Both the position numbers and the translations under genes were made by a program. The notes beneath the pieces were generated by a model. It was not told where the DNA came from. It saw only the letters and a list, made by a program, of their open reading frames with translations, and made no database searches. This document shows positions 672-33,657 of a DNA stretch of 33,657 nucleotides, piece after piece; within the stretch, counting starts at the first letter, position 1, and each line of letters starts with the position of its first letter. Origin of the DNA: an uncultured Ruminococcus sp. (lineage in GTDB: Bacteria; Bacillota; Clostridia; Oscillospirales; Acutalibacteraceae); contig CACWVH010000054.1 in the NCBI GenBank assembly GCA_902764235.1, forward strand, positions 1 through 33,657, given 5' to 3'.

Positions 672-797
672 AGTTTTGGACAGAAGAAATCAGAGCCGCG
701 GGAATAAAAGCGGAACATTAACTGTAATAACATTATTCTAATCGTAGTAATATATACCTAACTATTTTCGGAGCATTTTAAAGGGGGAGTGAAATAT

Positions 798-2198
798 ATG
801 ACAAGAAGAATTTCTGCGGCGGCTGTATCCTTGTTTTTGCTGCTGATGGTATTTTCGGCAGTTTTCAGTCTGGGAGCTTCTGCGGCAGATGACAGCGTCA
901 AGGCTGATTATTATTTATCCTATAAGAAATATATAGCTGCCGAAAACCCCGACGGAAAAAAGACCGTAACCTACAATGATATCACAGATCAGATATCAAA
1001 CCTTCTTGACGAGGGCGTCAGACGCTATGAAAGCGGAGCACAGAAGGACGGAGATGACGGTTATTATAAGCCCTTTACAAATTCATACGGCTTCTGGTAT
1101 GAAACCTCGGGTTATGAAAAGACTGTAATGGGTTATATTTCCGGAGCAAGGGTAAATGAAGTCGAGCTTCAGTTTTCCAATATGAAAAAGGCTGTCAATA
1201 ACAAGGACAGTGTTGAAAACGTAAAGGCTGAGGTTGAAAAGCTTGTGTCAATGCTTAGAGAGGATGCAGATACTCTTGATTCGCTTTTCGGCTATGAAAA
1301 AACAGAAACAGAACAATCGGGCTCGGGGGACGGACTTGCGTGGGCGACCTTCGGTGCTATCTTCGGAATAATCCTGCGTGAGGGACTTGAAGCAATACTG
1401 ATAGTCGGTGCAATGGCAGCCTATCTTGTAAAGACCGAAAACAAAAAGGGTCTTATCTACGTTTACGGCGGCTCAGGACTTGCGCTTATCGCAAGTGTGA
1501 TAATGGCAATTATTCTTTACTCTATCACAAGCAGCACAAGCAACTCCATACCGCAGGAGATCGTTGAGGGTGTTACAGCACTTCTTGCTGTTGCGGTGCT
1601 CATATATGTATCAAACTGGATGATATCAAAGGCTGAATCACAGGCATGGACAAAGTATATTTCTGACAAGGTCTCAGGCTCAGCTGATAAGGGTAAGCTG
1701 CTTGCATTGGGATTCACAGCTTTCCTTGCGGTATTCCGTGAGGGAGCAGAGGTTATTCTGTTCTGTCAGCAGTATTTCTCAAGAGCAGACTCGATGAACA
1801 ACGGTTTCTTTGCTGTATTCGGAGGAATAATCGCCGGACTTGCGGCTGTTGCGGTAATATTCGTTCTAATCCGTGTGTTTGGTGTAAAGATACCGCTGGG
1901 ACCCTTCTTTATGGCAACAAGTATTCTCATGGCTGTTATGTCAATAGCATTCCTTGGCTCGGGAATGTGGGAGCTTTTCCTCGACGGAGGTCTTGCTGAG
2001 TCTATCGGCGGATTTGTACAGAGCCTTGCAGGAACGATTCCGGCACTTTCATGGATGTCCGGAAATGACGCGCTTGCGTTCCTCGGAATTTATCCCACAT
2101 GGATAACCCTCGGACCGCAGCTGATACTTCTTGTGGTAACAATAGTAACCTTCATTCTTGCAATGAAGAAAAGCCGTAACAAAAAGGAAACGGCATGA
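798..2198 (+). CDS. FTR1-family iron permease with extracytoplasmic N-terminal domain
   Basis: Predicted high-affinity iron permease that moves iron across the membrane, probably Fe(III) after oxidation or ligand transfer. The 466-residue protein starts with a signal-like hydrophobic segment, then about 140 residues predicted outside the cell (acidic, helical), then some seven membrane segments. Two FTR1 signature REGxE motifs are visible: REGLE near residues 194-198 and REGAE near 314-318. The ATG at 798 is chosen over the in-frame GTG at 789 because AAGGGGGAG (781-789) overlaps the GTG but sits 8 bases before the ATG. It is the first gene of a ten-gene run ending at 10878; the next gene, a P19-like lipoprotein, is a known functional partner of FTR1 proteins (Campylobacter Cj1658/p19, E. 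coli FetM/FetP). The family is clear; metal specificity is inferred. Confidence 0.93.
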   Translation: MTRRISAAAVSLFLLLMVFSAVFSLGASAADDSVKADYYLSYKKYIAAENPDGKKTVTYNDITDQISNLLDEGVRRYESGAQKDGDDGYYKPFTNSYGFWYETSGYEKTVMGYISGARVNEVELQFSNMKKAVNNKDSVENVKAEVEKLVSMLREDADTLDSLFGYEKTETEQSGSGDGLAWATFGAIFGIILREGLEAILIVGAMAAYLVKTENKKGLIYVYGGSGLALIASVIMAIILYSITSSTSNSIPQEIVEGVTALLAVAVLIYVSNWMISKAESQAWTKYISDKVSGSADKGKLLALGFTAFLAVFREGAEVILFCQQYFSRADSMNNGFFAVFGGIIAGLAAVAVIFVLIRVFGVKIPLGPFFMATSILMAVMSIAFLGSGMWELFLDGGLAESIGGFVQSLAGTIPALSWMSGNDALAFLGIYPTWITLGPQLILLVVTIVTFILAMKKSRNKKETA

Positions 2199-2275
2199 CA
2201 ACGCAATGATCCGGTCTGACCCGTAAGCAACCGGTTTTATTGACAATAAATATGTATTAACGGAGGCAAAGAAAA

Positions 2276-2941
2276 ATGAAAAAGTATGTAAGATTTATCG
2301 CAGCTGCTCTTTGCGCTGCAATGCTCACAGTCGGAATGGCTGCCTGCAACAATTCAAACAATAACGATCAGTCATCAGCTGCATCAGCTGCTCAGACAAA
2401 GACTGATTCTGATTCAAATGCGGATGCAAACGCAGACGCAGATGCTGCTGCTGAGGATGACGGCGGCAAGGATCTTGGTTTTACAGAGGTCGAGATCTTC
2501 TCAGGCGTTAAAAAGGAATTCCTTAACCTCAATGCTGTATATTTCCAGCCGGTTGATATGACAGGCGGATATAAGGCTGAGGATTATGACTGTCACCTTG
2601 AGCTTGATGTTTCTGCTCTTGAAAACGGTCTTGGCTTCGGTAAGGGCGACTGGGTTCCTTATCTTACAGTAAACTATGAAGTAACAAAGAACGATACAAA
2701 GAAGAAGATCAGCGAAGGTACCTTCATGCCGATGGCTGCTTCTGACGGTCCTCATTACGGTGCTAATATCAAGATGGACGGTGACGGACTTTACACAGTA
2801 AAATTCACAGTCAAATTCCCTGATTCAAGCACATACCTTATCCATACGGATGAAACAGGACCTGATACACATGAGTTCCCGTCTGCTATCGAATATACAT
2901 ATGATAACTGGCAGTTCACAAAGGGCGCATGGGCTGAATAA
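2276..2941 (+). CDS. P19/Tp34-family periplasmic-type metal-binding lipoprotein
   Basis: Predicted surface lipoprotein that binds metal and works with the FTR1 permease. The 221-residue protein has a lipoprotein signal with Cys24 in a MAAC lipobox, an Ala/Asp/Ser-rich linker (about 30-64), then a P19/Tp34 beta-sandwich domain. Candidate metal ligands match the copper/iron site known in C. jejuni P19: His107 (in HLELD), Met151 or Met153 (FMPM), His160 (GPHYG) and His190 (IHTDETG). RBS GGAGG lies about 8 bases before the ATG. It follows the FTR1 gene by 77 bases and is followed by a strong hairpin (2993-3032), so it and FTR1 may be expressed at a different level from the rest of the cluster. 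Being a lipoprotein rather than a soluble periplasmic protein fits a Gram-positive cell. Confidence 0.92.
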   Translation: MKKYVRFIAAALCAAMLTVGMAACNNSNNNDQSSAASAAQTKTDSDSNADANADADAAAEDDGGKDLGFTEVEIFSGVKKEFLNLNAVYFQPVDMTGGYKAEDYDCHLELDVSALENGLGFGKGDWVPYLTVNYEVTKNDTKKKISEGTFMPMAASDGPHYGANIKMDGDGLYTVKFTVKFPDSSTYLIHTDETGPDTHEFPSAIEYTYDNWQFTKGAWAE

Positions 2942-2965
2942 TTTATAAAAAATTTGCGGTATATA

Positions 2966-3070
2966 GAGTTTTATGGGACTCTGAATGCCGGAATAACTCC
3001 GATCCTGGTATTGATATGAGGATCGGAGTTATCGGCTTGTATATATTATTTTTTACAGAACATAAAACTC
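2966..3070 (+). terminator. Nested inverted repeats between the P19 gene and the DUF2318 gene
   Basis: A perfect 14-bp stem, ATAACTCCGATCCT (2993-3006) with its complement at 3019-3032, is extended by GCCG/CGGC outside a 2-base bulge and followed by an interrupted T-rich stretch (3047-3053). A second perfect 10-bp inverted repeat, GAGTTTTATG (2966-2975) with CATAAAACTC (3061-3070), encloses it. It could be a partial terminator or an mRNA-stabilising structure; the T-run is not immediately next to the stem. Confidence 0.6.
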
Positions 3071-3172
3071 AGACTTCCCGAATGAAAATTTCCGGTGTGC
3101 TTCCGGCTTTATTGTCAGGTGCTGAATGCTATACAGTACGGGAAGATGAAGTAAAAAGAAAAAGGTGGAAAA

Positions 3173-4486
3173 ATGCTTACATATTTAATTAATGTAACCG
3201 GAGATATGCTTGCAGTGTCTCTGGTGATCGGAATAATAATGGCATTTATAGATACAAACTGCACAGACAGGGCTAAGGTTATCTATAAGCTCGGTATTGC
3301 AGCAGGCTTTGTTTCTGCCGGAATAAGGGCATATATCACAAATACAAGAAGGCTTGAGGGCGGCTGGAAGGTGGGCGCTTACGGTCTCGGTATTTCGCTC
3401 GGACTTTTTGTTCTGTCCATGGCTGCGCTGTGCATTTTCGGGTACAGCCTTCTGAAACATAAAAAAGGCTCAAAAATGGCATCAGCCGGAAATTATGTAA
3501 TTGCTGTGACGGCGGCTCTTCTGAGCGGGTCATATCTGTATTGTGAGCTGCCGAATGTATTTGCTTATCCTTTCAAATTCGGCACGGACGGAGAAAGTAT
3601 ATTATCAACGGAATTTCTTTTCCGTCTCGGCGGATATCTGCTCGGTATCGCTGTATGTGCGGCAGCCTTTTATTCCGCATATAAGCTTTGTATGACAGCT
3701 GCTGAAAAAGGAATGAAAGGCTTGCTTACCTTTGCATTTCCGGCAGCCGGTCTGGTTCTCGGAGTTTATCTTTTCGCAATGCTCATGCTTGTGCTTACGC
3801 CGAGAAAGATTGTTGACAGCCCGGAGCTTTTCAGCTTTGCCGCATCAAGCAGCAATTATGCTTATCTTTATACCTGTGCTGTATTCCTCATCCTTGTAGT
3901 GACCGCTGTTATATTCTGGATAAAGAGCTTTACAGTGAAGGAGCCATACAGCAATAAGGCGCAGCACAGAAAGCAGCGTGCTGTCTGGAGAAGCGGCAGG
4001 CGGTACAGTGTATTGATGGCAGTATGCCTTGTGACCGGAATTCTGTGCGCAACATGGTTTGTCGCTCTGAATACCGTTGAAATAAGGGAAGCTCCTGTTG
4101 AGGACCCTGTAATCATAAAGGACAGCGCCGGACATGACAGTACGCTTCAGGTTCCGATAGAGATCGTTCAGGACGGACATCTGCATCGCTTTGGATATAA
4201 AACACCTGACGGCAATCTTGCAAGGTTCATTGTTGTTCTCAAGCAGGAGAATACGAATAATTACGGCGTCGGACTTGATGCCTGCGAGATTTGCGGTGAG
4301 GCAGGCTATTATGAAAACAACAACGGTCAGATCGTCTGCAAAAAGTGTAATGTAATAATGAACAGGACAACAATAGGCATGAAGGGCGGCTGCAATCCCA
4401 TAATAATCGACTATGATATTGACGAAAGCAATATTACAGTCCCGGTGGAAGAAATGGTCAAGAACGGCTCAAGATTCAAGAACTGA
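3173..4486 (+). CDS. DUF2318-domain integral membrane protein of the iron cluster
   Basis: A 437-residue membrane protein. About eight hydrophobic segments fill the first 260 residues, another lies near 280-300, and a soluble C-terminal DUF2318 domain of about 110 residues follows. That domain carries the family cysteines Cys371 and Cys374 (CEIC), Cys389 and Cys392 (CKKC) and Cys407 (GGCNP), plus a His-rich start (DGHLHRF). These suggest binding of a metal, Fe-S centre or heme-like group on the outer face. The same family occurs next to FTR1/P19 in Campylobacter (Cj1660) and E. coli (fet operon). The start at ATG 3173 has AGGTGG just upstream. A 350-base gap follows, unusual inside this otherwise tight cluster, and it contains a dispersed repeat. 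Its exact function is unknown; a redox or metal-delivery role is inferred. Confidence 0.88.
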   Translation: MLTYLINVTGDMLAVSLVIGIIMAFIDTNCTDRAKVIYKLGIAAGFVSAGIRAYITNTRRLEGGWKVGAYGLGISLGLFVLSMAALCIFGYSLLKHKKGSKMASAGNYVIAVTAALLSGSYLYCELPNVFAYPFKFGTDGESILSTEFLFRLGGYLLGIAVCAAAFYSAYKLCMTAAEKGMKGLLTFAFPAAGLVLGVYLFAMLMLVLTPRKIVDSPELFSFAASSSNYAYLYTCAVFLILVVTAVIFWIKSFTVKEPYSNKAQHRKQRAVWRSGRRYSVLMAVCLVTGILCATWFVALNTVEIREAPVEDPVIIKDSAGHDSTLQVPIEIVQDGHLHRFGYKTPDGNLARFIVVLKQENTNNYGVGLDACEICGEAGYYENNNGQIVCKKCNVIMNRTTIGMKGGCNPIIIDYDIDESNITVPVEEMVKNGSRFKN

Positions 4487-4836
4487 TGTGATTCTAAATA
4501 CTGTTTTTCATAAAATACTGAGCGTCTGTACAAATATATAGAATCAGAGCTTTTTAATGAAGCTCAGTAACTTAAACTTCCCATACCATTTTACTGTTAA
4601 ATCCAAGTATTAATCGTACTTTTAACAACTTTGTTTGTTTTCTTTTTCGACAGTGTAATATCAAGTGGAAGGTTTGAGTCAGTAAAAATCACGGACGGCA
4701 GCGGAGAATAATGTAAAATATATTATTGTTTTCCGCATGAATAAAAGCTTTTCTGTATTTTAAGATCAACCGCTGATATCTGATATATGCAGACATATAT
4801 TTTATAAGGTATCAGTATTATGAGAGGAATGATAAA
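4487..4836. other. 350-base gap inside the iron cluster
   Basis: No gene is seen. From left to right it holds a small GATTCTA/TAGAATC inverted repeat (4490-4545), a dispersed element (4567-4677) whose inverted relative lies at 27910-28078, and a hairpin formed by GCGGA-AATAAT and its imperfect complement (about 4699-4735). The GAGAGG ribosome binding site of the next gene ends the gap. A separate promoter for the ABC part could lie here, but I could not pick one with confidence. Confidence 0.6.
4567..4677 (-). repeat. Dispersed element family D, short copy inside the iron operon
   Basis: The reverse complement of this 111-bp stretch matches most of 27910-28078. Shared blocks include CAAAGTTGTT, TTAATACTTGGATT and AACAGTAAAATGGTAT. 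This copy lacks the GC-rich palindrome found in the middle of the other. Its ends share AAACTTCCCA-like sequence in inverted orientation, like a small inverted-repeat element. No coding potential. Confidence 0.75.
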
Positions 4837-6138
4837 ATGTTTTTCAGAATGATCCGGGGGACATTTCTCCGGCAGTGGAAAAAGCTTCTGATGATAGCGC
4901 TGACGGTTGCCCTGGGTGCGTCTATTGCAACGGCAATGCTGAATGTTATGCTTGACGTCGGAGACAAGATAAATGAGGAGCTGAAAACCTACGGCTCGAA
5001 TATAACCGTAGTTCCGCAGTCCGAGGCTGTAATGAACAAGCTGTATGATGTGGAAAACGATGAAGCAGTGACTGAATATATAGCAGAGGAAAAGCTCGGT
5101 GAGCTGCTGACAATATTCTGGGCTAATAATATTACCGATTTTGCGCCTGTCACGGATACCACAGTCACACTCAACGGCGGAGATGAGGTTACTCTTGTGG
5201 GAAGCTGGTTTGACCATCATCTGGAGTTTACCAAAAAGGGAACGACATATCAGCGTGACACAGGTATCATTAATCTGAGAAGCTGGTGGGATGTGACAAG
5301 CGGTAAAATGCTTGATGAGCAGAAACAAAGCGGTGACGGCTATGCTATGGTAGGCTCGGAGCTTGCAGCACAGCATAATATCAGCGCCGGAGATAAAATA
5401 ACCGTTAAGGGCGAAAAGGGCAGCGAGCAGCTTGTGGTTACCGGAATATATGAATCAGGTGATGATGAGGATAAATATATCTACACGACCCTCTCTGCTG
5501 CACAGAGGCTGACAGGAAGTACCGGCTATTTCAAAAAAGCAGAGGTCAGCGCAATAACCTCACCTGACGACGAGCTTGCAGTCAGGGCGGCTAAGGACCC
5601 CTCGCTGCTGTCAGGTGATGAATATGATCTCTGGTACTGCACAGCCTATGTCAGCTCCATATGCTTTCAGATTCAGGAGGCTATTCCCGAGGCAAATGCG
5701 TCTGCTGTAAGACAGATCGCAGATTCGGAGGGTAAGATCCTTGAAAAGACAGAGCTTCTGATGACTCTGATCTCGATAATGAGCCTGATCGGTGCAACGC
5801 TCGGCATATCTAACCTTGTCACCTCAGGCGTTATGGAGCGTTCGCAGGAGCTTGCGCTGCTGAAAGCAGTCGGGGCTACCAACGGACAGATAACAAGGCT
5901 TGTTCTGACAGAAATATTATCGGCAGCCATAGTGGGAGCCGCGGCAGGCTTTTTTATGGGCTATGCCTTTGCGCAGATAATAGGTAGGACCGTATTTGAT
6001 TCGGCAGTTGAAATGAGCGGAATGGTCGCCTTTATCGTCGCTGTGCTTATAATAGCAGTAACGCTTTTCGGAAGTATACCGGCTGTGAGGATGCTGCTCA
6101 GGCTCAGACCGTCTGAGGTGCTTCACGGCGGACATTAA
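4837..6138 (+). CDS. MacB/FtsX-type ABC transporter permease (first of the cluster)
   Basis: A 433-residue permease with the MacB-like layout: one N-terminal membrane segment (about 15-35), an extracytoplasmic domain of some 260 residues, then three C-terminal membrane segments of the FtsX fold (about 305-430). The coupling-helix region reads GVMERSQELALLKAVGATN, a family hallmark. Such permeases often do not carry solute through the membrane but couple ATP hydrolysis to work outside the cell. It is 11 bases upstream of a second, related permease and close to its ATPase (7370). Homologues sit in the same order in FTR1/P19 clusters of other bacteria. RBS GAGAGG is upstream of the ATG. Role in iron release or handover is inferred. 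Confidence 0.9.
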   Translation: MFFRMIRGTFLRQWKKLLMIALTVALGASIATAMLNVMLDVGDKINEELKTYGSNITVVPQSEAVMNKLYDVENDEAVTEYIAEEKLGELLTIFWANNITDFAPVTDTTVTLNGGDEVTLVGSWFDHHLEFTKKGTTYQRDTGIINLRSWWDVTSGKMLDEQKQSGDGYAMVGSELAAQHNISAGDKITVKGEKGSEQLVVTGIYESGDDEDKYIYTTLSAAQRLTGSTGYFKKAEVSAITSPDDELAVRAAKDPSLLSGDEYDLWYCTAYVSSICFQIQEAIPEANASAVRQIADSEGKILEKTELLMTLISIMSLIGATLGISNLVTSGVMERSQELALLKAVGATNGQITRLVLTEILSAAIVGAAAGFFMGYAFAQIIGRTVFDSAVEMSGMVAFIVAVLIIAVTLFGSIPAVRMLLRLRPSEVLHGGH

Positions 6139-6149
6139 GGAGAGATAGC

Positions 6150-7355
6150 ATGAATAAAAAACGAAGGATGTTTGTCAGGATGGTCACAGCCTCCCTTGTA
6201 AGAAGACGCTCACGTATGATAGTGGCACTTCTTGCTATTATTGTCGGAGCAACTATCCTGTCAGGTCTCGGAATGATATATTTTGATGTACCCCGTCAGA
6301 TGAGCGCTCAGTTCAGAAGCTACGGAGCGAATATCATCTTTACTCCCTCGGATGACGGATATATAGACAAGGATTCACTTGAAAAAGGCATATCCTGTTT
6401 CAGCAAGGAACAGCTTGAGGGTTATACACCGTACCGATATGAAAACACAAGTATACATAATATACCGGTGACGCTTGCCGGAACGGACTTTTCAGGTGTG
6501 CTGAAAACAAGTCCCTACTGGCATATCAACGGGTCAATGCCGTCATCAGACGGCGAAGCCCTGATCGGTGCAAAGGCTGCGGAAAAGCTGGGCATCAGCG
6601 TCGGAGACAGCATTTCAGCGCAGAATTCCTTTGAGGTGACCGATGAGACCGATCTTACAGGTATACCGGATTACGAAATATATACAGACCCGGAAACAGG
6701 TGAAAAATACTGCGATCATATGCTTGAGCTCAAGGCAGCAGGAATACTTGAAACAGGCGGCTCTGAGGAGGAGTATATATATGTAACACTTGCCGACATA
6801 CAAAGCCTTACTCTCAGCGACAGAGGCTATGATATTGTTGAGGTCAGCGTTGCGGCAATGCAGGATGAGCTCAAGGATTATTTAAAGCAGGTCGGTGAAA
6901 AGACTCCGGATATTTCCGCAAGGCTCGTAAAGAGGGTAACAGCTTCTGAAAGCACAGTGCTGACAAAGCTTGAGGCTCTTGTGCTTATTGTTACTATCGT
7001 TGTTCTTGCACTTACTATGATATGTGTTGCAACAACAATGACGGCGGTGATTGCGGAGCGCAGAAAAGAGATCGGTCTGAGAAAGGCTCTCGGTGCGCAG
7101 AATTCAAGTATTATGGCAGAATTTCTTAGCGAGGGTCTTGTACTCGGCGGCGTGGGAGGAATAGCAGGCTCTTTGCTTGGCTTTGTTTTTGCGGATATTG
7201 TCAGCATGAATGTTTTCAGCAGTCCGATAACCTTCCGTCCGCTGCTTCTGCCCATAACGATAGCAGCGTCTGTGATCGTCACAGGACTTGCGTGTATGAT
7301 TCCGATAAAAAGTGCTGTTGAAGTTGATCCGGCACTGGTTCTCAAGGGTGAATAA
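6150..7355 (+). CDS. MacB/FtsX-type ABC transporter permease (second of the cluster)
   Basis: A 401-residue permease with the same plan as the preceding gene: N-terminal membrane segment, extracytoplasmic domain, then three C-terminal membrane segments. The hallmark between the first two of these reads IAERRKEIGLRKALGAQN. GGAGAG lies just before the ATG. With the 4837 permease it probably forms a heterodimer served by the ATPase that follows 14 bases later. The two permeases are clearly related in design but differ in the outer domain, so each may touch a different partner such as P19 or the flavoprotein; that is inference. Confidence 0.9.
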   Translation: MNKKRRMFVRMVTASLVRRRSRMIVALLAIIVGATILSGLGMIYFDVPRQMSAQFRSYGANIIFTPSDDGYIDKDSLEKGISCFSKEQLEGYTPYRYENTSIHNIPVTLAGTDFSGVLKTSPYWHINGSMPSSDGEALIGAKAAEKLGISVGDSISAQNSFEVTDETDLTGIPDYEIYTDPETGEKYCDHMLELKAAGILETGGSEEEYIYVTLADIQSLTLSDRGYDIVEVSVAAMQDELKDYLKQVGEKTPDISARLVKRVTASESTVLTKLEALVLIVTIVVLALTMICVATTMTAVIAERRKEIGLRKALGAQNSSIMAEFLSEGLVLGGVGGIAGSLLGFVFADIVSMNVFSSPITFRPLLLPITIAASVIVTGLACMIPIKSAVEVDPALVLKGE

Positions 7356-7369
7356 GGAGGTTGGAAAAA

Positions 7370-8050
7370 ATGAGCTTGCTTGAATTAAAGGATGTATCAA
7401 AGGTATACGGAGAGCTTCATGCTCTTGAAAAGGCAAATTTAAAGGTTGACAAGGGCGAGTGGATTGCAATAATGGGACCGTCCGGCTCAGGAAAGAGTAC
7501 CATGATGAATATAATAGGCTGTATGGACAGACCAAGCTCGGGTCAGGTGATCTTTGACGGCAGGGATATCACAAAGGAAAGCCGCAAAAAGCTTACAGAA
7601 TTTCACCGTGACAAGATCGGTCTGGTATTCCAGCAGTTTCATCTTATCAACTATCTGAATGCAGTTGAAAATGTAATGGTTGCTCAGTATTATCACAGTA
7701 TGCCCGATGAAAAGGAGGCGCTGGAGGCTCTTGAGCGTGTAGGTCTGAAGGACAGGGCAAGACATCTTCCCAGTCAGCTTTCTGGCGGTGAGCAGCAGAG
7801 AGTATGCATAGCCCGTGCGCTTATCAACTCGCCGGAGCTTATACTTGCAGATGAACCGACAGGAAACCTTGATGAAGCGAATGAAAATATCGTTCTTGAT
7901 ATATTCAGACAGCTGCACAAGGAGGGCACAAGCCTTATCGTAGTTACTCACGACCCGGAGGTGGGCGAGGTGGCACAGCGTATCGTCAGGCTTGACCACG
8001 GAAAGATAATTTCCGATAAGAAAAATGAAAGCTTTTCGGAAGGAGAGTAA
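7370..8050 (+). CDS. ABC transporter ATPase (LolD/MacB type) of the first module
   Basis: A 226-residue cytoplasmic ATPase that energises the two permeases upstream. Visible motifs are Walker [10 protein letters not shown] near residue 35, the Q-loop in LVFQQFHL, the signature LSGGEQQR, Walker [14 protein letters not shown] and the switch His in VVTHD. AAGGAGG (7354-7360) sits 9 bases before ATG 7370, so the in-frame TTG at 7361, directly touching the ribosome binding site, is unlikely to be the start. The following FMN-binding lipoprotein begins 3 bases after its stop, so they are probably co-translated. Confidence 0.94.
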
Positions 8051-8053
8051 AAA

Positions 8054-8497
8054 GTGAAAAAACGAATAATTATTATTTGTGCAGCATTGATATCCGCAGT
8101 GATGCTGAGCCTTGCAGGATGCTCACAGCAGGAAAAGCAGACTGATTACAAGGACGGGGTATATACCGGAAAAAGCTCAGTTCATCAGTCAGACGAGGAC
8201 GGAAACGGCTCGGGCTACGGTGAAACAGAGATTGAGATAAAGAACAACAAGATAGTTTCATGCACCTTTACAACATATGAGCCTGACGGTACATTAAAGG
8301 ATGAAAGCTACGGCTCGGAATTTTCAAAGGAAAACAGACTGAAAGCACAAAAGGCAGTACAGGCGAGCACAAAATACGGTTCAATGCTTGTATCGAAGGG
8401 CTCAGTAGATGAGGTAGACGCAATAAGCGGAGCGACCATTTCCTATGAAGAATTCAAAGAAGCTGTTGAGGATGCGCTTAAAAAGGCTGAAAAATAA
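8054..8497 (+). CDS. FMN-binding-domain lipoprotein, predicted covalently flavinylated
   Basis: A 147-residue lipoprotein: signal with LAGC lipobox (Cys23), then an FMN-binding domain. Its motif DAISGAT (residues 122-128) fits the consensus at which ApbE attaches FMN through a phosphoester bond, here predicted on Thr128. The start is GTG at 8054, with AGGAGAG (8041-8047) in front and the upstream stop overlapping this region. The protein would face outside and carry one-electron or two-electron redox equivalents. In the Campylobacter and E. coli clusters thioredoxin-like proteins occupy a comparable place, so a reducing role towards metal or cysteines of the DUF2318 protein is a reasonable inference. 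No ApbE gene lies in this window. Confidence 0.9.
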   Translation: MKKRIIIICAALISAVMLSLAGCSQQEKQTDYKDGVYTGKSSVHQSDEDGNGSGYGETEIEIKNNKIVSCTFTTYEPDGTLKDESYGSEFSKENRLKAQKAVQASTKYGSMLVSKGSVDEVDAISGATISYEEFKEAVEDALKKAEK

Positions 8498-8533
8498 GCA
8501 GATGAAATAAAGAAGCGGAAAAGAGGAAGGATA

Positions 8534-8989
8534 ATGCTTGTAAACAAACCAAAATTAAAGATTGCCGTAACAGAGCTGCTCATTGCAGCTGTTTCGATAA
8601 TATTTCTTATAGGGATAAGAGTATGGTTCCCGGTATGCGAGCCTTCGGGGGAAAGCTATATGAGCTGCCACTGGGCAGGTGAGTCGCTGGGAGCGGTTTC
8701 GATAGTAATAGCTGTGCTGTCGGTTGTACATATTTTTATTCCTGATGCAAAAATAAAGACGGGCATGGATATCGCTGCACTGGGAACTGCTGTGTATACA
8801 TTTCTGATCCCGGGGACGATAATAAGTCTTTGTAAGATGCCTGAGATGTCATGCAGAAGCAATACGGCTCTCTGGACAACGGTAATAATGATAGTTTTTG
8901 CAGTGATTACAGCAGCGGATATTATTCTTCAGCTGTCATGCAACTCCGGGGAAAAGCACAGAAGAAAGAAAACGGAAGGTCAGATATGA
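8534..8989 (+). CDS. DUF4418-family small membrane protein
   Basis: A 151-residue protein with four predicted membrane segments (about 10-30, 52-72, 80-105 and 112-135) and a short basic tail. Two Cys-containing outer loops are visible, WFPVC...MSCHWAG and CKMPEMSCRS, a pattern typical of the DUF4418 family. The family's biochemical role is unknown. The paired Cys/His/Met residues at the membrane surface could bind metal or take part in redox chemistry. GGAAGG precedes the ATG. Its stop overlaps the start of the next permease in an ATGA (8986-8989), which implies translational coupling with the third permease. Confidence 0.82.
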   Translation: MLVNKPKLKIAVTELLIAAVSIIFLIGIRVWFPVCEPSGESYMSCHWAGESLGAVSIVIAVLSVVHIFIPDAKIKTGMDIAALGTAVYTFLIPGTIISLCKMPEMSCRSNTALWTTVIMIVFAVITAADIILQLSCNSGEKHRRKKTEGQI

Positions 8990-10194
8990 AATTTGCTTTT
9001 AATGTTTCACTGAAAAATATCAGAAGAAGACCCTTCCGTTCAGCGGCACTCGGAGCGCTTGTGATGCTGCTGACGATCTGTCTGTTTCTCGGTGCAGAGG
9101 TGATACTCAGTCTTCAGGGCGGTCTTGATGCATACAGGTCAAGACTCGGGGCGGATGTGATAGTTACACCCTCATCAGCGTCTGCCCACGGTTCTGTTGA
9201 TGATATTTTTCTCCAGGGTATTACGGGCAATTATTATATGTCTGAAAAGGATATTAAGAAAGCCGCAGATACAGACGGCGTTCAGAGTATATCAAGACAG
9301 TTTTACCTGACCTCGGCAAAGGCAGGCTGCTGCTCGGCGAGAGTTCAGATCATCGGCTTCGAGCCGGAAACTGATTTTTCTGTTCTGCCATGGATAAAAG
9401 AAAGCTACAGCGGAGAAATACGAAACGGAGATATTGTTGTCGGCTCGGAGATAAGCGTGCCTTCTGACAGACAGATAAAATTCTACGGCAAAAAATATAA
9501 TGTTGCAGCAATACTTGGGAAAACCGGTACAGGACTTGATAATGCAGTTTTCACAGGCTACGATACAATAAAGGAAATGGCAAGGAGCGCTGCGGATATT
9601 ATTTCCAGAAAGGAATTCAGCGGAGTCAATATTGATAATACGGCTTCTGCATTGCTTATAAGGGTAAAGGATGGCTATGATCCCCAGACTGTGGCGGATG
9701 ATATCAATATACATATCACAAAGGTGCAGGCGAAGGCTTCAAAAAGCATGATATCCGGTCTGTCTGACGGGCTTTCGGGCATTTCAGGAATAATAGCTGT
9801 GCTTGTGGGTGCAGTATGGGTATTCTGCTTTATTATCATGCTGATGGTTTTTGCACTTCTTTCAAATGAAAGAAAAAAGGAATTCGCTGTTTTCAGGATA
9901 ATAGGTGCATCGGGAAAAATGCTGACTGCTGTTATGGCGGGGGAAACAGCGGTGCTGTGTCTTGCCGGCTCTGCGGCAGGGCTGCTTGTGTCGGTGCCGT
10001 TGTGCTTTCCTCTTTCGGATATGATACACAGCTCCCTTTCACTGCCTCTGCTGATGCCGGACGGTGCAGTGCTTGCGGCACTGTGTGCAGGAGCTGCTGT
10101 AATACCGCTGATAACGGGAGTGCTTATATCGCTTGCTTCGGCGGTCAGGATAACAAAGGCAGAAACAGGTCTGCTACTGAGGGAGGGTGCATGA
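8986..10194 (+). CDS. MacB/FtsX-type ABC transporter permease (third of the cluster)
   Basis: A 402-residue permease with a basic N terminus (NVSLKNIRRRPFRS), a first membrane segment, an outer domain of about 240 residues and three C-terminal membrane segments; the family hallmark reads NERKKEFAVFRIIGAS. Start at ATG 8986 is supported by GGAAGGT five bases upstream, by the ATGA overlap with the DUF4418 gene, and by the normal N terminus it gives; a longer in-frame extension back to 8851 would overlap the previous gene and looks wrong. It has its own ATPase immediately downstream (10195), so the cluster contains two complete ABC modules. Confidence 0.9.
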   Translation: MKFAFNVSLKNIRRRPFRSAALGALVMLLTICLFLGAEVILSLQGGLDAYRSRLGADVIVTPSSASAHGSVDDIFLQGITGNYYMSEKDIKKAADTDGVQSISRQFYLTSAKAGCCSARVQIIGFEPETDFSVLPWIKESYSGEIRNGDIVVGSEISVPSDRQIKFYGKKYNVAAILGKTGTGLDNAVFTGYDTIKEMARSAADIISRKEFSGVNIDNTASALLIRVKDGYDPQTVADDINIHITKVQAKASKSMISGLSDGLSGISGIIAVLVGAVWVFCFIIMLMVFALLSNERKKEFAVFRIIGASGKMLTAVMAGETAVLCLAGSAAGLLVSVPLCFPLSDMIHSSLSLPLLMPDGAVLAALCAGAAVIPLITGVLISLASAVRITKAETGLLLREGA

Positions 10195-10878
10195 ATGAAG
10201 CTGAGAGCAGAAGGAATAAGCAGAAATTTTTTCAGAAAAGGTAAGAACACTAATTTTTTCACAGCTGTTGAAAAAACTGATTTTGAGCTTGAGCAGGGCT
10301 GTCTGACTGAAATAACAGGTCACTCGGGCAGCGGAAAAACAACCTTTTCAAATATGCTGTGCGGACTGCTGACTCCTGACAGCGGAAGGGTTTTTCTCGG
10401 AGACCAGTCATTATATGAGCTTGACGACAGAAAGCGCTCTTATCTGCGCAATCGCTATATCGGGATAATTCCGCAGGGGCAGACAGGTCTTCACGGGCTG
10501 ACAGTGCTTGAAAATGTGATGCTTCAGGCGGAAATGTACGGCAGCACCCCGGATGCAAGGGAAAAAGCCGTTTCACTGCTTGAAGCGGCAGGCATCGGGG
10601 AGCTGTGCGAGGTTTATTCAAACGAGCTTTCCGGCGGAGAACTGAGACGTATGGTTATCGCCCGTGCAATGATGAATGATCCGCCCATACTGATCGCAGA
10701 TGAGCCCACAGGAGATCTTGACAGTGAAACAACAGCTCTTATACTTGAGCTTTTCAGAAAATATGCCGATTCCGGCAACGCTGTGCTTATGGTGACCCAT
10801 GAAAAAGAGGCGCTTTGTCATGCAGACAGAATTTTTTGTATGGAAAAGGGCATTCTGAGCAGCGTACCCAAGAAATAA
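10195..10878 (+). CDS. ABC transporter ATPase of the second module
   Basis: A 227-residue ATPase. Walker A is GHSGSGKTT (about residues 41-49), the Q-loop region IGIIPQGQTG, signature LSGGELRR, Walker B PILIADEPTGDLD and switch VTHE. It starts directly after the permease stop, with GGGAGGG at 10182-10188 inside the end of the permease gene. It is the last gene of the iron cluster and is followed by a hairpin terminator (10925-10983). Sequence and spacing tie it to the third permease rather than to the first pair. Confidence 0.93.
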   Translation: MKLRAEGISRNFFRKGKNTNFFTAVEKTDFELEQGCLTEITGHSGSGKTTFSNMLCGLLTPDSGRVFLGDQSLYELDDRKRSYLRNRYIGIIPQGQTGLHGLTVLENVMLQAEMYGSTPDAREKAVSLLEAAGIGELCEVYSNELSGGELRRMVIARAMMNDPPILIADEPTGDLDSETTALILELFRKYADSGNAVLMVTHEKEALCHADRIFCMEKGILSSVPKK

Positions 10879-10999: not shown

Positions 11000-11028
11000 T
11001 TGACAAGAATCCTTAATAATGATATAAT
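11000..11028 (+). promoter_or_regulatory. Promoter of the cpsC/cpsD-type pair
   Basis: Perfect TTGACA (11000-11005), 17-base spacer, perfect TATAAT (11023-11028); start expected near 11035, leaving a leader of about 150 bases with one small hairpin (AATGCT/AGCATT near 11067-11086). The stretch 10879-11187 otherwise contains only the upstream terminator. Confidence 0.88.
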
Positions 11029-12768: not shown

Positions 12769-12868
12769 TAAGGAAACACTGATTAGTTCATTAATCAGTG
12801 TTTGGGGTGTGGGGCGAAGCCCCACGTATAGCCACTTCTAACTTGCTTCAAACATAAAATGATATTTT
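12769..12868 (+). repeat. Dispersed element family A, copy lacking its right end
   Basis: These 100 bases are identical to 16365-16464. The element begins TAAGGAAACACTGATTA, contains a hairpin (CACTGATTAG/TTAATCAGTG) and a GTGGGGC/GCCCCAC hairpin, and is non-coding. The right terminal inverted repeat present in the other copy is missing; instead the nicotinamidase-like coding sequence starts at the break (12869). Confidence 0.85.
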
Positions 12869-31758: not shown

Positions 31759-32114
31759 GGGGGTGCAATGGTTTCGACGGGGGGCGGGAACGCCGGCAAG
31801 CGAGCAGCGGCATTGCGGAACCGCTATAAAATCCGTAAAACTTAAATAATAAACGACAACAATAAAACTGTTGCCCTTGCCGCTTAATTAGGCAAGCGTT
31901 CGTGCAGTGAGTACCACGGCACTGTACGGGCGTCGACTTAGTGGTGAACGTGAACAGGGAAGAGTCTTGCTCTCTGTCATGATCTAAAGACTACCGAAAC
32001 AGTATGCCTGTCTGTGGGCGTGCTGCCGGGGGAAACTTCAAACACAGACTGCGCTCGGAGAAAACCGACCGGATCGCCTTTCGGACAGGAGTTCGATTCT
32101 CCTCACCTCCACCA
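31759..32114 (+). ncRNA. ssrA: Transfer-messenger RNA (tmRNA)
   Basis: The one-piece tmRNA begins GGGGGTGCAATGGTTTCGAC and ends TTCGATTCTCC-TCACCTCC-ACCA. The acceptor arms GGGGGTG and CACCTCC pair (one G-U) and CCA is encoded. The tag reading frame at 31852-31887 encodes NDNNKTVALAA followed by TAA. The codon immediately before, where the resume codon is expected, reads ATA. smpB is next door. The 3' 77 bases are overlapped antisense by the recombinase frame, showing that the tmRNA 3' end is an integration site and is kept intact on this side. Confidence 0.96.
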
Positions 32115-33657
32115 AAAGTTCGTTATTCAAACCCTGCCCAAAAAAATTTGAGTAGGATTTGAGTAACTTGTGGATAGAATCAGCGTCTGCTTCGGCAGAC
32201 GCTGATTTCGTGTTCTGATTAATCAAATCATGCTCAATTGGGCCGACGATATTCTTATATATGTCAGTAAATTCTGTAGTTACTGTCCCGTCCTCATGTA
32301 TCCAGATTCTCTTGAATATAGCTTGGCACATGAGTTTTTTAATATTATCGTTCGCTTTTCGATAAGTTCTGCCGCAATCCTCGATGAGATCGAAGGCAAG
32401 AGACAGATTCTTGAGGATATCATCGAACGTAGTGCTGCGGACGCTGATTTCATGTTCAATAGCTGAGAGCTGTTTTGATAATGATTGCTGTTCTCGCTTC
32501 ATTAAACTGAGGGGGATTGCATCGTTAAAATGTGCTTCAAGTAGTTTTTCCTGCTTATGCTCAATTTTTTCCTTCTCTCGATGAAGCGCATCCAGTTCAG
32601 TCTTAAATTTCTCATTTTCTTTATTAATGAAATCTTGAATTTGTGCTTCTAGCAAGAATCGATCTTCGGGCTTTATTGAATAGTTATCGAAAATCTTTTC
32701 AAGTTGATATTCAACTTCGTCAATTAGTATAGAGCGCATCTTACATGTCTGCCTTGCAGATTTCGTTCGATGCCTTCCTGCGCATATAAAATATGGATAT
32801 ACATTTCCTGTATGACTTTTTGCGTGAGTCACAACCATTCTGGATTTGCAATTCCAACAGTAAACTAGCCCCTTCAGAAAGTGTGGGTGCTCTCTTGTTC
32901 GCTCTCCATTATGATGCGACTGTATAATGTTCTGTACTTTGTTGAATGTTTCTAGGTCGATGAGCGCTTCATGAGCTCCGTCATATTCAATGCCGTTATA
33001 TCGGATTACTCCAGCATAGTATGGATTCTTAAGCATTTTTTCGATTGATGTTTTTGTGACGGGCTTGGATGGAATCTTTGGTGTCGGCCTCGTACTTAAT
33101 CCTAATGCGGCCATATATTCGGCAAGACTAATAATTGACCATTCGCCGGTCGCGTATTCTTCGAAAGCTTGTTTAACGAGTGGAGCTCGTTCTGGGTCAA
33201 GTTCGACGGTGCGTTCTTCGCGTCCTTTATCGTCAATTCTTCGCACATTGATGTAACCGAGCGGTGCTCTGCCTACGGTTCCACCACCTTTTACTTTTTC
33301 GCCCATGCCTTTCTTAACTTCCGTCGCAAGGTTTTGGGAGTAGAACTCGGCGATGGAGCTCATGATGCCGTGGAGCAGCATGCCAGAAGGCGTCTCGTCG
33401 ATGCTTTCCGAGGTGGAGACTAATTGCACACCGCATTCGCGCAGCACCTTCATGATTTCTGCATCGTCGCCACGGTTCCTTGCCAGTCTGTCCACTTTGT
33501 GAACGATGACGTAGTCGATGCGCTCGGCGTTTTCCTTCACATACTCGAGCATCGCCTGAAGCTGTGGACGATCAGCAGATTTAGCAGATGCACCGCGATC
33601 AACGAATTCTTTTCCAACCATAGCACCCATGGATAGAGCTTTTTTCTTCTGTATTTC
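32038..33657 (-). CDS. Large serine recombinase, 5' end beyond the window
   Basis: Site-specific recombinase of an integrated element. At least 539 residues are visible; the frame is open to the window edge, so the N terminus with the catalytic serine is not seen. Present are the rest of the resolvase domain (VIVHKVDRLARNRGD and the SSIAEFYSQNLATEV region), a Recombinase domain (APLGYINV...NPYYAGVIRYNG), a zinc ribbon (LVYCWNCKSRMVV with later Cys in FICAG and QTCKMRS), and a long coiled coil (NEKFKTELDALHREKEKIE). This is the standard order of large serine integrases. The stop at 32038-32040 lies inside ssrA antisense, so the last 25 or so residues are encoded by the tmRNA complement; before integration the C terminus would differ. 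Confidence 0.92.
   Translation of the reverse strand, partial: EIQKKKALSMGAMVGKEFVDRGASAKSADRPQLQAMLEYVKENAERIDYVIVHKVDRLARNRGDDAEIMKVLRECGVQLVSTSESIDETPSGMLLHGIMSSIAEFYSQNLATEVKKGMGEKVKGGGTVGRAPLGYINVRRIDDKGREERTVELDPERAPLVKQAFEEYATGEWSIISLAEYMAALGLSTRPTPKIPSKPVTKTSIEKMLKNPYYAGVIRYNGIEYDGAHEALIDLETFNKVQNIIQSHHNGERTREHPHFLKGLVYCWNCKSRMVVTHAKSHTGNVYPYFICAGRHRTKSARQTCKMRSILIDEVEYQLEKIFDNYSIKPEDRFLLEAQIQDFINKENEKFKTELDALHREKEKIEHKQEKLLEAHFNDAIPLSLMKREQQSLSKQLSAIEHEISVRSTTFDDILKNLSLAFDLIEDCGRTYRKANDNIKKLMCQAIFKRIWIHEDGTVTTEFTDIYKNIVGPIEHDLINQNTKSASAEADADSIHKLLKSYSNFFGQGLNNELLVEVRRIELLSERRSGRFSPSAVCV
32123..32166. other. Candidate attachment-site dyad at the ssrA/element junction
   Basis: TTATTCAAACC (32123-32133) and GGATTTGAGTAA (32155-32166) form an imperfect inverted repeat directly beyond the tmRNA CCA end. 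This is the expected place for one half-site of the attachment site used by the adjacent recombinase. It could also be a terminator-like structure for ssrA. The exact crossover point cannot be set from one junction. Confidence 0.45.

Follow-up and report, generated by a model that had tools for sequence, protein, structure and literature searches.

We analysed a 33,657-nt stretch of DNA from an uncultured Ruminococcus sp. (contig CACWVH010000054.1 of assembly GCA_902764235.1), hereafter the window, in which ten genes lie between positions 798 and 10878. Judging from gene families, motifs and linkage, it is likely that these genes make up an iron-uptake locus in which the Gram-positive form of the fetMP-fetABCD system has been joined by a module of a DUF4418 protein, an FtsX-type permease and an ATPase, and that the locus works in the way proposed below. 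Genes 1 to 7 have been published as a system: they correspond to the Campylobacter fet cluster in its Gram-positive form, in which a flavin mononucleotide (FMN) protein occupies the thioredoxin slot. The new part consists of the module of DUF4418, permease (permX) and ATPase (ATPX), hereafter the triad, and of a module of fumarate reductase (FrdA, FrdB) and SdhC-like genes lying off the window; as an extension of a known iron-uptake system, it is real and well-linked. Genomes, contigs and loci are cited by G, C and L numbers, G000 being the window's genome.

Gene content and conserved residues of the ten-gene locus

All ten open reading frames (ORFs) are on the plus strand, and a Pfam search matched every one of them to the family named for it in the original prediction. 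The locus opens with an FTR1/FetM-type iron permease (798..2198; PF03239, 9.3e-27), a P19/FetP-type iron-binding lipoprotein (2276..2941; PF10634, 7.3e-43) and a FetA-like membrane protein with a C-terminal DUF2318/FtrD-like domain (3173..4486; PF10080, 1.4e-25), followed by two FtsX/MacB permeases that both match PF02687 and PF12704, one FetB-like (4837..6138) and one FetC-like (6150..7355), a FetD-like ATP-binding cassette (ABC) ATPase (7370..8050; PF00005, 2.5e-36) and an FMN_bind lipoprotein (8054..8497; PF04205, 1.5e-9). The triad completes the series with the DUF4418 protein (8534..8989; PF14387, 1.1e-25), the third FtsX/MacB-like permease, permX (8986..10194; PF02687, and PF12704 at residues 55-240), and the second ABC ATPase, ATPX (10195..10878; PF00005, 1.1e-27). 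Families, motifs and gene order agree with the predicted FTR1/P19 iron importer of the Campylobacter and E. coli fet kind.

The intergenic gaps are, in order, 77, 231, 350, 11, 14, 3, 36, -4 and 0 nt. The ORFs stand as they were first placed, but two gene starts probably differ: for permX the ATG at 8986, which overlaps the DUF4418 stop by 4 nt, is more likely than the mechanical start at 8851, and for the first ATPase the ATG at 7370 is more likely. The claim of a single cluster holds for 4837-10878, a well supported operon-like cluster formed by the last seven, tightly packed genes. It is less firm for the first three gaps, where an inverted repeat in the P19/fetA-like intergenic region (2993..3032, plus strand; 19-nt arms, 89% complementary) is a possible attenuator or partial terminator; with this repeat and the long gaps, more than one transcript is possible upstream.

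In the FTR1 protein, R, E, G and E of two R-E-G-x-E motifs (residues 194-198 and 314-318), which characterise FTR1 permeases, are kept in 19/19 alignment rows. The P19 protein, with relatives in the PDB down to 6.7e-32, keeps the lipobox C24 together with the presumed metal-site residues H107, E109, M153, H160 and H190 in 21/21 rows. The FetA-like protein has 437 amino acids (aa), with the PF10080 match at its C-terminal end, and its C371, C374, C389, C392 and C407 are all kept in 25/25 rows; the spacing in DUF2318, CxxC-x14-CxxC-x14-C, differs from the CxxC-x13-CxxC-x14/15-C reported in PMC6083913. In the FMN lipoprotein, the lipobox C23 and S125, G126, A127 and T128 are each kept in 24 or 25 of 25 rows, and the DAISGAT motif occupies residues 122-128, so that the earlier numbering of Thr128 is correct. 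ApbE is encoded in the window's genome (G000:C11) and in 50/61 genomes of the genus, and is thus not specific to the fet set. With an [S/T]GA[S/T] motif, a lipobox and ApbE in the genome, the prerequisites of ApbE-type flavinylation are present, and the lipoprotein is predicted to be covalently flavinylated by ApbE.

In the DUF4418 protein, C35, C45, C100 and C107 are invariant in 32/32 rows, and each of the two loops contains M-x-C in 94-97% of rows. A low-confidence model has four helices, the pairs C35/C45 and C100/C107 standing between helices 1-2 and 3-4, and together with the charged ends it suggests that the cysteine loops may be oriented outward. Homology of DUF4418 to DsbB or VKOR was considered and rejected, as its profile matched no PDB chain up to E 10 and Pfam gave DUF4418 alone. 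The permease permX has a vicinal pair, C115-C116, inside the MacB_PCD match that is invariant in 31/31 rows, and a weak PDB match to LolF (5.2e-5). In ATPX, the Walker A, SGGE, Walker B and His-loop residues are conserved in 29 rows, and the top NCBIfam model is LolD, under its cut-off. A MacB_PCD-FtsX permease with a cognate ATPase fits a Type VII (FtsX/MacB) ABC module, and by analogy with this family it is plausible that the FtsX-type permeases do mechanical work.

Linkage of the triad and of the electron module to fet genes

Co-occurrence was surveyed in 291 genomes of the class, 200 of the family and 61 of the genus (own genome included); the tests count genomes singly and ignore shared ancestry, and PF10080 matches under the cut-off are left out of all three counts. 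In the class sample, P19 was over the cut-off in 4/291 genomes and DUF4418 in 12/291, and 4/4 P19 genomes have the triad in the same locus. PF10080 exceeded the cut-off in 13/200 genomes of the family, in three frames of 439-458 aa and ten of 169-244 aa; 3/3 genomes with full-length FetA have DUF4418 in the locus, and DUF4418 was found in 4/200 overall. In the genus, PF10080 was over the cut-off in 19/61 genomes, DUF4418 in 21/61 and both in 16 (one-sided Fisher 7e-8, kinship ignored). The three FetA genomes of the genus lacking DUF4418 (G304, G329, G346) are 74-84% complete, and their contigs end in the ATPase, FrdA and anchor gene. DUF4418 shares a contig with fet genes in 15 of the 21 genus genomes (in G340 without permX and ATPX); among the other six, G292 and G328 have the triad alone, DUF4418 adjoins FrdB on cut contigs in G308 and G298, and G297 and G334 have it on short contigs, that of G334 with a lactate/malate dehydrogenase (LDH/MDH)-type gene, FrdA and FrdB after DUF4418. 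Near weak DUF4418 matches in G003 and G123 (L057, L058), none of the ten genes was found by profile, and a genome-collection scan gave one locus with DUF4418, L045. The original prediction had DUF4418 and a second ABC pair added to the fet genes; these families do co-occur and are physically linked, and the absence of co-occurrence that would have spoken against it was not what we found.

Three layouts were seen, with the triad downstream (window, L046, L051, L136-L144, L156), upstream (L130, L131, L157) or split (L047). DUF4418 follows the FMN gene in the window, in most linked genus loci, in G024, in G400 (with an ApbE gene between) and in G185 (with permX last), and it lies ahead of FTR1 in G307, G293 and G392; in the split triad of G206 (L047), DUF4418-ATPX come before FTR1 and permX after the FMN gene. 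The fet-linked sequences fall into three parts of the permX tree, and the standalone ones into one of these, except L055; rows from cut contigs that were labelled as alone (L135, L149, L154, L158) group with the window. We are unsure of the number of triad/fet joinings suggested by this tree, several inner branches being open and some rows long. Three further arrangements were observed: the DUF4418 gene of G340 (L132:13304-13765) shares its strand with FTR1 and lies 1.4 kb upstream of it, G293 has a second DUF4418 copy without permX or ATPX on a short contig (L155:790-1197), and a Transglutaminase-like gene lies between triad and FTR1 in G392 (L157:5318-6202).

The electron module consists of four proteins: an anchor (roughly 168 aa) with a membrane stretch at its N-terminal end, an SdhC-like protein (roughly 179 aa), FrdA and FrdB. 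The anchor and SdhC-like genes lie between the FMN and DUF4418 genes in the genus loci L136-L142, L144, L151 and L152 and in a Lachnospiraceae metagenome-assembled genome (L045); the same interval measures 36 nt in the window, and L143 has neither gene there. The order FMN-anchor-SdhC-DUF4418-permX-ATPX-LDH/MDH-FrdA-FrdB was found in L137, L138, L139 and L142, and as far as FrdA, at the contig end, in L140 and L152, while FrdA and FrdB directly follow SdhC in G337, G293, G340, G392 and the stand-off copies of G000, G307 and G342. In the genus, the SdhC-like protein occurs in 16/19 FetA genomes versus 3/42 others (Fisher 4e-9, kinship ignored; the count leaves out G316, at 8.2e-4); the three others (G308, G315, G324) all have DUF4418, two of them with other fet genes on cut contigs. 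In the class sample it was matched at E < 1e-40 in G000, G250, G146 and G057 and weakly in 4 more of the 291 genomes.

FrdA and FrdB are named by both Pfam and NCBIfam, with catalytic and iron-sulfur (Fe-S) domains present in the module, including the copy of the window's genome (L164). Recognition of the SdhC-like protein is weaker: the L137 copy reaches Pfam Sdh_cyt at 0.0041 and an NCBIfam model at 0.00093, both under cut-off, the L136 and L045 copies have no Sdh match at 0.1 and the L164 copy none at 1e-5. Its profile has SdhC as top PDB match (0.0018) and shows four invariant His, and we regard the protein as a putative cytochrome b. The anchor, whose L137 copy has no Pfam family, carries D-x-[VIT]-[ST]-x-A-[ST] in 23/24 rows (DAVTGAT in L181 and L182), and the Gly of SGA[ST] in 16/24. 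Flavinylation of the anchor in the window's genome was considered and set aside, as the copy there has Ser at the position of this Gly, which 8/24 rows lack.

In FrdA, which aligns with both succinate dehydrogenases and fumarate reductases, Gln replaces the His that binds flavin adenine dinucleotide (FAD) covalently in 22/22 rows showing the site. Five dicarboxylate motif patterns are all present in 16/23 rows; of the other rows, L140, L144, L149 and L183 are cut, and L167, L181 and L182 lack one pattern each. E. coli FrdA lacking the covalent-FAD His reportedly keeps fumarate reduction and hardly oxidises succinate. An FrdA with dicarboxylate motifs and Gln at this site is thus expected to favour fumarate reduction. 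An LDH/MDH-type gene lies between ATPX and FrdA in L137 (14896-15858), and the same gene was found in L138, L139, L140, L142, L152 and L154; its top score is to L-LDH, below cut-off, and TAGRGR stands at the specificity loop in 7/7 rows. Arg at that position marks malate dehydrogenases.

Upstream of FTR1, a weak candidate metalloregulator operator (TTAG-N10-CTAA, 7/8; 744..761, plus strand) lies 36 nt before the ATG. Exact TTAG-N6-CTAA and TTAG-N10-CTAA were each found in 10/20 FTR1-upstream regions (the window's among the 20), an enrichment that is post hoc, as the motif was spotted by eye and counted afterwards; none of the other spacers from 4 to 11 occurs in these 20 regions. One or the other exact site is present in 14/19 relatives' stretches, and one miss, L146, has only 62 nt. 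The window itself has no exact TTAG palindrome and nine 7/8 matches across its whole length. In G322 (L140), where FTR1-P19 are on another contig, the palindrome site precedes FetA. A DtxR/MntR-type gene was found in five loci (by Pfam for L137, by phmmer for L139, L142, L153 and L159). It adjoins FrdB in L137, L139 and L142; in L159 it is 164 nt away from P19, and in L153 the closest gene of the cluster is at a distance of 4.6 kb. A Fur or DtxR box of the classical kind ahead of the window's FTR1 was sought and rejected, with no match of at least 12/19 in 303 nt. No Rfam family reached its gathering score in the cluster. Beyond it, a sigma-70-like match (12/12, 11000-11028) lies ahead of the next plus-strand gene (11188), such matches being no proof of function. 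Elsewhere in the window, a tRNA-Leu occupies 1-85, an identical 18-mer occurs at 12828 and 16424, 3.6 kb apart, and at 31759-32114 and 32038-33630 a minus-strand recombinase-like ORF (family by eye) overlaps the 3' end of the tmRNA gene, which looks like an element integrated into ssrA.

Proposed mechanism and alternative explanations

We propose that P19 would pass iron to FTR1, whose transport would be coupled to a redox change of the iron, and that on the outer face FetA and the covalently flavinylated lipoprotein would trade electrons or disulfides. Iron would not be carried by the two FtsX-type ABC modules; their ATP-driven conformational change would move or reset the outer-face partners, the second module acting on the four-cysteine membrane protein DUF4418. 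In the genus, the flavoproteins are probably wired across the membrane by the anchor, SdhC-like protein, FrdB and FrdA. Electrons may flow inward, from Fe(II) or thiols through flavin and cytochrome b to FrdBA and finally fumarate; in the absence of oxygen, this flow would provide FTR1 with ferrous oxidation. We tentatively prefer this direction as slightly more probable than outward flow, since the Gln in FrdA, the Arg of the LDH/MDH-type enzyme and the dependence of FTR1 on a ferrous oxidase together favour it slightly.

Permeases of the FTR1 type are held to depend on a ferrous oxidase, whose identity in bacteria is only partly settled, a cupredoxin oxidising Fe(II) in vitro in the case of FtrABCD (PMC11966278). 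Anaerobes are without oxygen to drive such an oxidase, and the linkage described here supplies candidates, the Frd/SdhC-like module and the DUF4418 module. In its most specific form, which we consider rather unlikely, the locus would be an anaerobic ferrous-oxidase importer: Fe(II) at P19/FTR1 would be oxidised without O2, its electrons passing via covalently bound flavins and the SdhC-like cytochrome b to FrdBA and cytosolic fumarate, the triad would reset the thiols of the outer face, and the malate dehydrogenase-like enzyme whose gene neighbours FrdA in relatives would serve to regenerate fumarate. If this is true, iron uptake would be driven by fumarate respiration, and flavinylated proteins would have in SdhC/Frd one more class of transmembrane partner. 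The locus makes iron oxidation or reduction during oxygen-free uptake testable in an anaerobic-type bacterium.

Several observations weigh against the proposed working. In the window's genome, all four genes of the electron module lie outside the ten-gene locus, on contig C174 of 5263 bases (L164); G250, G146 and G057 have the module with no P19 match, the module is unmatched in the class genomes with fet genes plus triad (G024, G185, G206), and it is not a fixed part of the fet locus. In G250 (L181:7004-13110) it lies behind a regulator of the ArsR/SmtB type and a P-type ATPase for heavy metals (Cd family), both assigned by family search, and in G146 (L182:100-5978) behind proteins that by eye are alike to these two; this neighbourhood is again a metal context. 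In the class genome G081, a cut contig of 10.9 kb carries a FetB-like gene and a full-length FetA-like frame (428 aa), with P19 and DUF4418 unmatched in this genome, and triads without any fet gene stand in L049, L050, L052, L053, L054, L056, L133 and L134. Both structure models are poor (pLDDT, the predicted local distance difference test, 52.4 and 53.3), and fold searches with them were discarded. Published models of the core, as set out in PMC8238504, PMC6083913 and PMC10783030, assume reduction, and the activities, direction and interactions proposed here are inferred from the observed gene content, linkage and conserved residues.

The standalone triads could mean that the locus holds two unrelated neighbours, a fet importer complete in itself and an ABC module serving a substrate of its own, and for Campylobacter and Bifidobacterium the accessible text of PMC6083913 and PMC5449479 describes a working core with no mention of the triad. 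We hold this to be highly improbable, as all four P19 genomes of the class sample carry the triad in the locus, the layouts are several, including the split one of L047, and in L137-L140, L142 and L152 the triad sits between SdhC and FrdA. The same standalone loci bear on a further alternative, also unlikely but less remote, in which the triad would be a thiol module common to iron and sulfur-salvage loci, DUF4418 and permX forming an outer-face dithiol relay that provides FetA with thiol electrons or withdraws them or, in a variant, handling a thiol, sulfide or soft metal. The four invariant cysteines of DUF4418 in two loops, mostly as M-x-C, and the vicinal pair of permX are consistent with it, as are the CysK-type, Cys/Met-metabolism, NifH, nitrogenase component 1-type and NMT1-type genes that adjoin standalone triads. 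Among neighbours of L048 (where DUF4418 is without permX), L049, L050 and L133, 9/10 match Pfam: PALP twice, Cys/Met-metabolism pyridoxal phosphate (PLP) enzymes twice, NifH, nitrogenase component 1-type, Nitro_FeMo-Co and NMT1-type twice; in L053 and L055, sulfur- or nitrogenase-like neighbours were not seen by eye. This context is reminiscent of nitrogenase-like methylthio-alkane reductase loci, a putative identity for these genes. DUF4418 thereby gains two concrete contexts, one fet-linked and one standalone and sulfur/nitrogenase-like. Against the thiol module stand the lack of a PDB match for DUF4418, DsbB and VKOR included, a topology resting on charge and a low-confidence model, and the chance that the sulfur context reflects another substrate. 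DUF2318 also seems to have a second, separate context in PF10080 proteins, mostly of short frame, which at six class loci (L059-L062, L064, L065) have no other fet gene by profile, with ABC ATPase cross-matches in L059 and L061.

Electrons could instead run outward, in an assimilatory ferric reductase: from the cytosol across the membrane to the FMN lipoprotein, and on to Fe(III) or FetA disulfides, with Fe(II) entering the cell. The FrdA of the module, lacking the covalent-FAD His, would by the reported behaviour of E. coli FrdA be a poor electron source for this route. Surveys noting FMN proteins in P19 clusters (PMC6083913, PMC8238504) favour outward flow, as does the only NCBIfam match of the lipoprotein, to the extracellular electron transfer flavoprotein PplA, far below its cut-off (31.5 vs 325 bits); sifABCDE mutants were reported to be sensitive to two Fe(II) chelators and not to a third, so that the substrate may be Fe(II) (PMC5449479). 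FTR1 permeases, however, are held to need ferrous oxidation (PMC11966278), and FetE and FetF looked like oxidases (PMC10783030). On balance a ferric reductase is only slightly less probable than inward flow. The predicted reduction of metal by the surface flavin is accordingly in doubt, the fumarate reductase-like module counting against it as well, and in its favour are the reduction of insulin by FetE and the relayed reducing power of which the authors still speak (PMC10783030). We keep to inward flow as the preferred direction.

Relation to known systems

Liu et al. (2018, PMC6083913) reported 33 species in which the first six genes keep this order, with an FMN-binding protein as seventh gene in Actinobacteria, Firmicutes, Spirochaetes and Synergistetes, and the FMN-binding gene of P19 clusters is also in print in PMC8238504 (Meheust et al.). 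The FMN protein predicted for the redox slot is thus present, but its exchange for thioredoxin was dropped as a novelty, having already been published there. Mutants of Bifidobacterium breve bfeUO-sifABCDE, genes also named in PMC6955684, are sensitive to iron chelation (PMC5449479); growth of C. jejuni is impaired when any one of fetM, fetP and fetA-D is deleted, and redundantly by loss of fetE and fetF, FetE and FetF being judged perhaps to be oxidases (PMC10783030). For FTR1-family permeases, described as dependent on a ferrous oxidase, the cupredoxin of FtrABCD was reported to oxidise Fe(II) in vitro (PMC11966278).

In a full-text search without most subscription journals, the sole mention of DUF4418 was in PMC7701253, where an expression table for B. 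longum has it next to the gene of an ABC permease. The combination of P19/FTR1 with fumarate reductase was not found by title or abstract, again without most subscription journals, nor was the module combination found by title or abstract among the matches listed for flavinylation with transmembrane electron transfer; succinate dehydrogenase, fumarate reductase and cytochrome b do not occur in the main text of PMC11334425.

Compared with Campylobacter jejuni fetMP-fetABCDEF (CJJ81176_1649-1656) and the E. coli fet homologues, the locus of the window has the first six genes alike in order and families, whereas their seventh gene is a thioredoxin and the window has an FMN lipoprotein and an extra DUF4418-permease-ATPase set. 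The Gram-positive P19 clusters (PMC6083913; PMC8238504) share genes 1-7 with the FMN protein seventh; a transmembrane partner is not described in the accessible parts of these papers, in which the word DUF4418 does not occur, whereas relatives of the window have a Frd/SdhC-like partner. The bfeUO-sifABCDE locus of B. breve (PMC5449479) likewise has an FTR1 protein, a protein with eight transmembrane segments, two FtsX permeases, an ATPase and an FMN protein, but its second gene is called BfeO, and a gene in opposite orientation follows sifE, so that there is no triad there. Brucella and Bordetella FtrABCD (PMC11966278) has a P19-type FtrA and an FTR1-type FtrC, and the FetA of the window carries the Pfam FtrD-like domain; as reported, FtrABCD differs in its cupredoxin FtrB and in having four components, without ABC modules or an FMN protein. 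The off-window module, finally, is like complex II in its FrdA, FrdB, SdhC-like membrane protein and kept dicarboxylate motifs, and differs from it in the Gln that replaces the covalent-FAD His, in the weakly recognised SdhC-like protein, in the added anchor with a flavin motif and in its link to iron-uptake genes.

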